From a virus: a stretch of DNA of 39,004 bases. This document shows, in pieces, positions 4,074 to 8,923 of the stretch (positions within the stretch are counted from its first letter, which is position 1; each line of letters begins with the position of its first letter). Under the pieces are notes generated by a model that was not told the DNA's origin, did no database searches, and saw nothing but the letters and a program-made list of their open reading frames with translations. The position numbers and the translations under genes are program-made. The stretch is from positions 1 through 39,004 of IMG/VR virus record IMGVR_UViG_3300033153_008390. One strand, given 5' to 3'.

Positions 4074-5480
4074 TTAAAATTCTAAAGCTATCTCACCTTT
4101 CTTTTTCTTATGTTTATTAACTTCTATTACTTTGATTCAATTCTTAGGAACTCAGTATTCATCCATTATAGCAGATTGTTTCTGGACTCTTTGTTTATCA
4201 AGGATTTTATCATTCCAAACAAATATGTCAGCACCAGTCTTCCCAGGACTTTTCCTTAAGGATCTTCATATACTCTGAATCACTGTATTCTCAAATTTAA
4301 TAGCACTGAATATAAACACACAATCTATAACTGGGTAGTCAAACCCTACAGAACATTTCTTAATAGATCAGATAATTATAGTAGGTTTATCACTCACAAG
4401 GGCTTCTTCTAATAAGACTTTGTCATCCGAAATCTTCGTCTCGCCAGTGATTGTAATTATATCATAATCATCATATATAGAGAAGTAGTCTTCCCAGAGT
4501 TGGATTTCTGAAATCCTATCACATAGTATTAATGAACATTGTTTTGACAGGTTTTGAACAACAGCTTTCCTTTGTTCAGCAATTCTATGTTTATCTTCTC
4601 ACATATTTCATCTCAATTCAGCATAATGCTCAAACTCATAGATCTTTTTCATATAAGATTCTCATGATTCCTCATCATTATATAAGAATTCAGCATCTTC
4701 GTTATGTTGGTAATTATAGAAAGTAAACGATGGAATAAAATCATATTCCTTTTTAATCTCTATAACCTTACCAAAGTATTTCTCCAGATCTTTCTCATCT
4801 AAATCAACAGTACTTGGAGTTGCAGAGAGTCCATATAAGTAAACATCTCTATTCTTAAATGCAACATTGAATTTATCTCTGAATTTCTTACTGAATCATT
4901 GATGGCATTCATCTATAATAACAGAATCAAAATCAGATAATAATTCATCTGGACAAGTTAAGAATGAACTTTTAGTCATTATAGTTACGAAGTCTATATT
5001 CTTTTTCCCATCTCAGTATTGAGCTGGTGTAAAGTTAGTCATAGAGGCCATCTTATCCATCATCTCCTGCATTAGTTTCTTATTAGTTACTAATACTAAG
5101 GTTGTACATTGTAAGTACTCTATGATGTCCATTACGATATGAGTCTTCCCCATACCAGTCTTCGCTTTAATAATTCCACATCTATAATTATAGGCTTCAT
5201 TCCTTTTTTTAATGATTCTAAGGATATTCTCTTGAAATGATATATTCTCCGCAAACCTTGCTTTAATCTCATCGGGAATAACATTCTGTTTAAATCATAT
5301 TGGAGTTCATACCGTATAAGGAAATCTTTCCAGTTTCATTATATCTTTATACATAGGGGGAAGACAGTCTCTAGTAAAAAACTTATGTTTCTTATTTACC
5401 ATCTTCTGCATATAGAACGAAAACTCCTTCTTCTCAATAGTAAAGAACTCCTTTATTTGTTTAAGTTGGTCTTTGTTCAT
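4074..5480 (-). CDS. Superfamily 2 DNA helicase (DEAD/DEAH-like)
   Basis: 468 residues. Walker A is GMGKTH near residue 107, motif II is IIDECHQW (DECH) near 188, motif III is LSATPS near 215, and motif VI is QSIGRSLRKSPGKTG near 400. This is a two-domain RecA-like SF2 helicase resembling phage UvsW/restriction-subunit-type enzymes that remodel forks or unwind branched DNA with ATP. It lies between primase and recombination genes. It contains few TGA codons before residue 60, and several after. Start ATG 5478-5480. Confidence 0.9.
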
Positions 5481-5485
5481 GGGTA

Positions 5486-5764
5486 TTATTTTAAATTGTT
5501 TATTTTTTCAATTAAGTCATCTACGATTTTTTTTTGTTTATTAAATGCTGTCTCCTGTCTTTTTTCTAAATTTTTTAATTCATTTTTTTCTGTTGTTAAA
5601 TCCCAACCTAAATTTTTAATTAATAACTTCTTTCTTTCTTCTTGATTTTCATCATAATAAATATATTTTTGTTCTCATCTATATATTAATACTTCTTTAG
5701 TTTCAACAGTTCACTTTTTTACTTTATCATCTTCAATAAAGTAAACTTCTTTCTTTTTTTTCAT
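5486..5764 (-). CDS. Hypothetical coiled-coil protein
   Basis: 92 residues, starting MKKKKEVYFIEDDKVKKGTV, with a C-terminal Lys/Glu-rich helix (ERRKKLLIKNLG..., EKRQETAFNKQKKIVDDLIEK) likely to be a coiled coil. It is 5 bp from the helicase start and 3 bp from the next gene, so it is in the same operon. No family recognised. Confidence 0.7.
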
Positions 5765-5767
5765 CTT

Positions 5768-5908
5768 CTATTCATTAACTTCTAAAATTACTTCTACCAT
5801 TTCTTTCCTCTCTATCTGTTCTTTAATCTCTGAAAGATTTAGTTCATACTCTCAGGTGTACTTAACTCAATATCTTTTAAAAGCATATTTAACTATAATA
5901 TGTTTCAT
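5768..5908 (-). CDS. Hypothetical small protein
   Basis: 46 residues, MKHIIVKYAFKRYGVKYTGE to EVILEVNE, ending TAG, with two TGA Gly codons. Two beta-strands followed by a helix are suggested. It is tightly packed between neighbours (2-3 bp gaps). No family recognised. Confidence 0.65.
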
Positions 5909-5910
5909 AT

Positions 5911-6051
5911 CTATAAATTATTAAAGTAATCATCTATACCTTCTCTAGCTTCCTCTTCACTATCTGTTACAATAATTGGAGAATGCCATTTTGATTTTAT
6001 TTCTCTTCTTTCATAAAAGTAAGTCTTTCAATCTTTAATTACTTTTTCCAT
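5911..6051 (-). CDS. Hypothetical small protein
   Basis: 46 residues, MEKVIKDGKTYFYERREIKS, then an acidic middle (TDSEEEAREGIDDYF). One TGA Gly codon. Same operon, 2 bp from the next gene. No family recognised. Confidence 0.65.
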
Positions 6052-8634: not shown

Positions 8635-8708
8635 TGGTTCTCAGTTATGGGATCGAACCATAATTGACAGAGTCAAAGTCTGTAGTCCTACCATTAGACG
8701 AACTGAGA
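8635..8708 (-). tRNA. tRNA-Gln (anticodon UUG), CCA encoded
   Basis: 74 nt. Acceptor TCTCAGT pairs with ACTGAGA; U8; D-arm GTC/GAC with GG in the loop; anticodon stem ACAGA/TCTGT with loop CTTTGAC giving anticodon TTG; T-arm TATGG-TTCGATC-CCATA; discriminator A and CCA are in the DNA. It reads CAA, the dominant Gln codon of this genome. Confidence 0.93.
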
Positions 8709-8715
8709 ATATAGA

Positions 8716-8840
8716 GACCGAGACAAGGATTTGCACCTTGTAAGCTAATCGTCTTTATAGCCACTTACATTTTCCCACGATTCAAAGGAGGTTATCGAGA
8801 CCCCAAATCATTGTGCGTCTACCTATTCCGCCACTCGGTC
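8716..8840 (-). tRNA. tRNA-Leu-like RNA with a ~40-nt surplus; unresolved
   Basis: 125 nt on the minus strand. Acceptor arms GACCGAG/CTCGGTC pair perfectly, followed by TGGCGGAATAGGTAGACGCA, which is the tRNA-Leu D-arm almost to the base, and a T-arm-like hairpin ACAAGG-TGCAAAT-CCTTGT. Between them are ~70 nt instead of ~40, containing ATGATT/AATCGT and GTAAG...CTTAC pairings. A normal anticodon stem cannot be placed without removing an insert. The T stem is one pair too long and no CCA is encoded. It may be an interrupted tRNA, a degenerate one, or a tRNA mimic. Confidence 0.5.
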
Positions 8841-8844
8841 ATAA

Positions 8845-8923
8845 TGTATACTGGATTTATCTAATTTAATTGATTAAATATATTACCTTATAGGTAAAAA
8901 CATAGTCAAACCTCCAGTATACA
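8845..8923 (-). ncRNA. Branched structured RNA element closed by an 11-bp stem
   Basis: TGTATACTGGA (minus, 8923-8913) pairs perfectly with TCCAGTATACA (8855-8845). Inside are two hairpins, TTACC-tataa-GGTAA and ATTTAA-TCAA-TTAAAT, giving a three-way junction 79 nt long. It lies 4 nt upstream of the tRNA-Leu-like RNA. No known class recognised. Confidence 0.5.

Follow-up and report, generated by a model that had tools for sequence, protein, structure and literature searches.

A phage RNA family with a leucine tRNA-like core and an exchangeable domain in place of the anticodon arm

The viral DNA analyzed here, a stretch of 39,004 nucleotides (nt) referred to as the window (IMG/VR virus record IMGVR_UViG_3300033153_008390, positions 1 to 39,004), encodes on its minus strand an RNA resembling leucine transfer RNA (tRNA-Leu), followed by a tRNA-Gln(UUG) and then a primase gene. 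The Leu-like RNA occupies positions 8716-8840, with its 5′ end at 8840, and is 125 nt long, about 41 nt longer than tRNA-Leu (the host tRNA-Leu genes compared measure 80-85 nt). Read from 8840 to 8716, its layout is GACCGAG-UG-GCGGAAUAGGUAGACGC-(73 nt)-ACAAGG-UGCAAAU-CCUUGU-CUCGGUC. The canonical tRNA features are present, namely a 7-base-pair (bp) acceptor stem, a D arm of the class II tRNA-Leu type, a T arm, and the core tertiary bases, and the leucine-identity base A73 is missing, with U in its place. An earlier sequence-only reading had reported a perfect acceptor helix, a near-canonical tRNA-Leu D arm, a T-arm-like hairpin with a 6-bp stem and no encoded CCA, a middle about 40 nt too long, and a normal neighboring tRNA-Gln, and each of these descriptions agrees with what we found (Table 1).

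Table 1. Features of the Leu-like RNA and its immediate surroundings in the window.
Feature	Coordinates	Strand	Basis or remark
Acceptor stem, 5′ strand GACCGAG	8834-8840	-	Fully paired (7/7 Watson-Crick) to 8716-8722; every pair covaries across the family
U8-G9 and Leu-type D arm UGGCGGAAUAGGUAGACGC (3-bp stem, A15, G18-G19)	8815-8833	-	Matches family consensus exactly
Hypervariable middle, 73 nt, where anticodon and variable arms belong	8742-8814	-	131 sequence clusters among 174 members; structured within lineages
Predicted hairpin 1 of middle, 12 pairs, 7-nt loop CUCGAUA	8777-8811	-	RNAfold minimum; shuffles equally stable; weak
Predicted hairpin 2 of middle, 4-5 bp, abuts U48; counterpart of family stem Px	8743-8762	-	RNAfold
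U48, Levitt partner of A15	8742	-	Invariant U (144/144 distinct members)
T arm ACAAGG-UGCAAAU-CCUUGU, stem of 6 bp, G55	8723-8741	-	6-bp stem covaries in family
Acceptor stem, 3′ strand CUCGGUC; CCA not encoded; discriminator U at 8715	8716-8722	-	Sequence
Normal tRNA-Gln(UUG), 7 nt downstream of Leu-like RNA	8635-8708	-	ARAGORN; Rfam RF00005, 58.8 bits
Promoter-like TTGACT-18-TAATAT, predicted start about 35 nt upstream of RNA	8880-8909	-	Consensus match 9/12, shuffles match as often; weak

Standard tools do not recognize this RNA. Within the window, ARAGORN calls the tRNA-Gln only, and an Rfam scan at E ≤ 1 likewise returns the tRNA-Gln and no family for the Leu-like RNA. Neither program, nor folding, placed the 5-bp stem and 7-nt loop of an anticodon arm immediately behind base 26. 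The anticodon-like hairpin that can be drawn in the middle has 12 pairs and a 4-nt bulge, with a stability indistinguishable from that of shuffled sequence (z of 0.3 to 0.7), and for this reason no standard anticodon arm can be placed, as the sequence-only reading had suspected. A covariance-model check set out beforehand placed none either. Assignment as a tRNA-Ser(CGA) by way of the CUCGAUA loop was rejected on the same properties of this hairpin.

We searched IMG/VR viral contigs with a pattern made of nine D-arm and eleven T-arm bases only, 50-80 nt apart and including no acceptor base. The pattern gave at least 120 matches, nearly all with the same architecture, which places the family in at least 120 contigs. 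Among 109 members (104 distinct) gathered without any pairing requirement, the seven acceptor pairs are formed in 88-98% and the outer T-stem pairs in 96-99%; in the distinct set, all but one of the seven acceptor positions show at least four pair types. An alignment of 67 members picked for at least six of seven acceptor pairs contains 285 double-change cells versus 77 in shuffles and has a covariation score of 0.71 versus 0.18; every acceptor pair and four T-stem pairs covary, so that compensating changes, which had been suggested as a check, are indeed found in related RNAs. Across 144 distinct members, U8, A14, A15, G18, G19, and U48 never vary. The search pattern partly preselected the D and T loops, but the T loop UGCAAAU is also retained in most of 44 matches aligned using a covariance model. 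Hallmarks of the family are the 6-bp T stem and G55 in the T loop; its length ranges from 80 to 190 nt, and the discriminator is A in 78 of 144 members. Position 47, usually A (132/144), is U in the window RNA, in which U48 and the 6-bp T stem are both there. No member inspected has a recognizable anticodon arm. On these comparative grounds, the architecture of the family is well supported.

Scores from covariance models are in line with this assignment. With the first model, clear members score 45-83 bits versus 25-39 bits for tRNA-Leu genes. A second model (R2), which contains no window sequence but whose members were gathered using the first, scores the window RNA at 72.9 bits (E = 3.7e-17); judged by this score against those of tRNA-Leu genes, the window RNA is not a chance match. 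One match in Listeria phage P61 (L249 6534-6674, 38-44 bits) was left uncounted because its score falls between clear members and tRNAs. The window RNA is one copy of a widespread and apparently undescribed family. We found no description of it in the open-access literature; subscription papers and most preprints lay outside the search, so a prior description is possible.

These relatives bear directly on whether the RNA is an intron-bearing tRNA-Leu of a new type, as the sequence-only reading had proposed, or a decayed tRNA. Either would fit the Leu-type D arm and the roughly 40 nt of excess length. In more than 100 distinct relatives, however, no anticodon stem appears after any consistent excision, and the insert starts right after the D stem and has no conserved or shared ends. 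The strong compensatory evolution, together with G55 and a 6-bp T stem as family hallmarks, also speaks against an intron or decay, which we consider exceedingly improbable. The tRNA fragment decoy offered by the same reading survives as a decoy but not as a fragment, since the acceptor, D, and T arms are all there and over 100 phages preserve them through compensatory changes.

In contrast to this frame, the middle is hypervariable, with 131 clusters among 174 sequences across lineages. Structure can nevertheless be recognized in it. A stem termed Px, with a 3′ strand that runs up to A47-U48, occurs in 73% of members versus 17% in shuffles, and pairing of the segment after the D stem with the Px loop is enriched, exceeding a stringent score in 26% versus about 10%. 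In a Paenibacillus-type lineage of four sequences, this pairing is supported as a 7-bp pseudoknot by one compensatory change, and Px and an inner hairpin covary too; in a Lactobacillus lineage of 13 sequences, Px and the hairpin also covary. The middle can also be replaced as a whole between phages that are nearly identical otherwise. In the pair L009 and L041, all three arms (acceptor, D, and T) and the next 250 nt downstream are identical, and the middles are 23% identical, i.e., unrelated. This swap suggests that the adjacent genes shared by the two loci are probably not what the variable part targets. Taken together, the cluster counts, the covariation within lineages, and the L009/L041 exchange indicate a constant frame carrying an exchangeable domain that, by these comparisons, is under selection within lineages. 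Two other roles for parts of the RNA were rejected. The window middle contains ACCUCCUUU, a potential anti-Shine-Dalgarno mimic, yet CCUCC is present in 3 of 144 members versus 1.0 expected. Mimicry of a host tRNA-Leu acceptor was likewise discarded, as the acceptors differ from those of the 15 host tRNA-Leu genes compared.

Members occur in varied genomic settings. Of 110 members, 23 have a late-type transcription activator gene of phrog_248 upstream on the same strand and 23 have one of phrog_36 (the sets may overlap), and genes downstream include HNH, terminase, endolysin, and scaffold. Some copies sit between the late activator and HNH/terminase genes, and the SPP1 copy lies between genes 9 and 11. 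Large phages have the element within tRNA clusters; members so placed include those of the window, LP65, 8014-B2, BSP38, 21C1, and phiLM33. Tandem copies are spaced by 2 or 10 nt. Just upstream of the window RNA, a 14-nt inverted repeat (8842-8855/8913-8926, 93% complementary, 57 nt apart) brackets the promoter-like site and is a possible operator.

These settings could be read as transcript punctuation, in which the element would be an RNase P/RNase Z substrate that cuts polycistronic phage RNA, the released RNA being a by-product with a middle free to vary. Mitochondrial tRNAs punctuate polycistronic transcripts in this way. Such a role needs the acceptor and elbow only, exactly the conserved parts, and would suit an element often positioned between gene blocks such as those named above. 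It is harder to reconcile with a middle that appears to be under selection within lineages, with widely scattered distances to the next gene, with D and T loops that look far more uniform than processing demands, and with the copies inside tRNA clusters, and we regard it as unlikely.

The distances also bear on a cis-acting leader, either a riboswitch-like or an antitermination element, for the next gene. In some phages, the element lies 12-40 nt ahead of a ribosome-binding site, and it is often the first element past the late activator gene. Against this, members have no common downstream gene and no constant distance to it (-20 to 559 nt, 5th-95th percentile), no shared terminator or switch was seen, and tandem and tRNA-cluster copies exist. 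We therefore rejected regulation of one fixed gene in cis, as downstream genes and distances vary, and consider a leader in general very improbable. A DNA packaging or cos element has an even slimmer claim: in the linear phiJL-1 record, the RNA is no more than a few nt away from the end, and in the Ln-9 and EG-TP1 records it is also near the ends, but copies in phi3T, LP65, and the window are far from packaging genes, identical downstream DNA is paired with different middles in L009 and L041, and the acceptor is maintained through RNA-type covariation.

We compared the family with known RNAs that share parts of this build. Likeness to tRNA-Leu (RF00005, class II) extends to the 7-bp acceptor, U8-G9, the 3-bp D stem, the D-loop sequence, the A15/U48 pair, and the T loop, and the stem abutting U48 resembles a variable arm. 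The family differs in having no anticodon arm, a T stem of 6 rather than 5 bp, G55 rather than U55, a discriminator that is often not A, and a length of up to 190 nt. Like transfer-messenger RNA (tmRNA), it combines a tRNA-like domain with pseudoknots and has other RNA in place of the anticodon arm; unlike tmRNA, it has no message part, an intact 3-bp D stem, and no fixed G-U acceptor pair, and it is ARAGORN-negative. ARAGORN finds no tmRNA in the window, where the insert is merely 73 nt. The 13-bp acceptor/T branch recalls selenocysteine tRNA (tRNA-Sec), but it is split 7+6 here versus 8+5, and the D stem has 3 bp; the Rfam model of tRNA-Sec gives weak scores of 25-26 bits in two loci, under its 47-bit cutoff. 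The tRNA-like structures of plant RNA viruses of the turnip yellow mosaic virus type also achieve viral mimicry of the elbow, with a pseudoknot elsewhere (PMC4810234). Those are the 3′ ends of RNA genomes, whereas the present RNAs are genes of DNA phages and apparently derive from tRNA-Leu.

ROOL and GOLLD are, like this family, non-coding phage RNAs near tRNA islands; they are 500-900 nt long, cage-forming, and unrelated in sequence. The two kinds can be neighbors: in L029, a ROOL RNA (667-1248) is followed after about 14 nt by a family member (1262-1384), and in LP65 (L128), a ROOL RNA (5374-5948) shares a tRNA cluster with several members.

The bacterial Y RNA YrlA is a further parallel, being a non-coding tRNA mimic of 90-150 nt with D and T arms that is reported in mycobacteriophages. 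In YrlA, the RNA's own ends form a large Rsr-binding stem, and the T loop is modified by TruB (PMC8394870); here, the ends pair into an acceptor stem, and the T loop has G55. By analogy with Y RNAs and Ro60/Rsr, the family might serve as a protein scaffold, its tRNA-like part recruiting a nuclease and its middle binding a Ro-like DUF2828 protein. A DUF2828 gene does lie within about 4 kb in five loci (L012, L033, L057, L097, and L205) versus 1.3% of phage records, and RtcB is nearby in L079 and L152. Most loci have no DUF2828 gene in the flanks examined, which led us to reject this protein as a universal partner. The topology is unlike that of YrlA in that the ends pair as an acceptor rather than as a Ro-binding stem, and neither the window nor 11 loci scanned with Rfam gave a Y RNA match at E ≤ 1. 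A scaffold role is consequently improbable. Overall, the family would act like a tRNA mimic yet fails the tested features of a tRNA, an intron-bearing tRNA, YrlA (by Rfam), and tmRNA.

Several other unusual RNAs lie near members. Scanning member loci revealed fourteen tRNA-like RNAs of 57-66 nt without, or nearly without, an anticodon arm, all fourteen encoded by the strand that also carries a member, with 11 at a distance of about 300 nt or slightly more at most; the same scan of Markov-shuffled loci found none. Those of 57-60 nt consist of acceptor, D, and T arms only (L003 2288-2344; L006 2256-2314; L041 9968-10026; L052 8160-8218; L083 5415-5473; L091 14556-14612; L097 3918-3977; L130 6126-6182; L162 2700-2756; L181 7292-7350; L190 595-653). 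Usually 100-300 nt from a family member and on its strand, they make up a second class of phage tRNA mimics that do not decode. Beside the Leu-like RNA in L003, structured stretches at 2345-2500 and 2648-2750 contain 7-bp acceptor-like helices (UUGGGCA/UGCCCAA and UGUGAUU/AAUCACA), and the region resembles an array of degenerate tRNA mimics. Otherwise ordinary tRNA-like genes carry 40-50 nt inserts in L033 (7532-7652 and 7661-7775), L057 (2435-2555), L097 (1961-2074), and L042 (4089-4208), which could be small tRNA inserts of a new kind. The inserts of L057, L097, and L042 have a common hairpin followed by CAGCAAUU...UGC, and the remaining ones have similar motifs; the L033, L057, and L097 phages also encode the Ro-like DUF2828 protein. 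In phage CKA15, three very highly transcribed unannotated regions are reported to lie within about 2 kb of its Ro-like gene (PMC12282133). The equivalent stretch of the Listeria P100-like phage P61 (L249 8399-9058) has no Rfam match except tRNAs.

The family reaches well beyond the window. Named phages with members are SPP1, phi3T, LP65, ATCC 8014-B2, phiJL-1, Sha1, Ln-9, BtpYZU01, D6E, LP-101, B054, and BSP38, and the copies are nearly always unannotated in their records. A scan of the GTDB genome collection identified 68 contigs, chiefly from Bacilli and Clostridia. Members were present in 24 of 251 Lactobacillaceae genomes. Among 398 genomes from the phylum to which a Bacillus seed belongs, 4 had a member; among 398 from that of an Alphaproteobacteria seed, the seed itself was the 1 genome with a member. 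The window phage uses a different genetic code. UGA fills the Gly positions of Walker A in the terminase and primase-helicase and of DPPYG in the methylase, six window genes contain 83 UGA and 128 GGN codons, and code 25 opens long frames across the 39-kb window. From UGA as glycine and the code 25 frames, we infer a host of the Gracilibacteria/Absconditabacteria kind. A search by its primase found no relatives of this phage, and a stricter pattern found no near copies of the window RNA in viral contigs.

The reading that we favor, tentatively and with somewhat less than even confidence, is that this phage RNA family keeps the three-dimensional core of tRNA-Leu, has its anticodon arm swapped for an exchangeable structured domain, and acts in trans as a non-decoding mimic, whether decoy, bait, or inhibitor. 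As the core and both ends are kept and the code-reading part is replaced, the RNA probably imitates tRNAs rather than making protein. It would be transcribed together with neighboring tRNAs or late genes, its 5′ end would be cut by host RNase P and its 3′ end by RNase Z or exonucleases, and CCA would then be added. The product may act on host proteins that grip the elbow and acceptor; candidate targets are tRNA-attacking defense enzymes and toxins, and the variable domain would tune which partner is bound.

Action in trans is the most likely option because the RNA cannot decode and nearly half of the members lack A73, which leucyl-tRNA synthetase needs. From what is known of tRNA-Sec and TruB, an acceptor/T branch of 13 bp (7+6) together with G55 would disfavor normal elongation-factor use and pseudouridylation. 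The elbow is a handle for RNase P, RNase Z, and many other enzymes, and the elbow and acceptor are held by the CCA-adding enzyme and many tRNA-attacking proteins (PMC4810234). Cas12a3 immunity cuts tRNA tails, and the enzyme still cleaves tRNAs after stepwise removal of arms (PMC12851939). An arms-race decoy fits a handle unusable in translation joined to a domain that changes fast and independently of the phage's own neighboring genes. The tRNA-shaped regulator or decoy envisaged by the sequence-only reading is accordingly the option that survives, with family-wide support from comparison of sequences. Some observations weigh against it. The two predicted hairpins of the window middle fold no better than shuffled sequence, and no relative is close enough to check the window's own middle. 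The nearest relatives of the window phage, seven loci found via the portal, are without the RNA in the stretches compared, so that conservation holds among relatives of the RNA but not among close relatives of the phage. The family is also tied to no particular defense system.

A more specific picture is conceivable but doubtful. Firmicutes phages and window-type phages of UGA-recoded Gracilibacteria/Absconditabacteria-type hosts might possess anticodon-less tRNA mimics as a class of their own. A swappable domain with a pseudoknot would choose the tRNA-targeting host defense or toxin to be baited or blocked, and the mimics would sometimes be arrayed with the 57-60 nt acceptor-and-elbow RNAs. 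Transfer RNAs are increasingly recognized as targets of phage defense, and phage tRNAs as counter-measures. The RNAs described here would add a previously unlisted family, which no Rfam family covers. If our reading is true, a conserved RNA with a tRNA handle and no decoding function, unannotated in laboratory model phages such as SPP1 and phi3T, would offer a direct and easy route to testing what tRNA mimicry does in phages.
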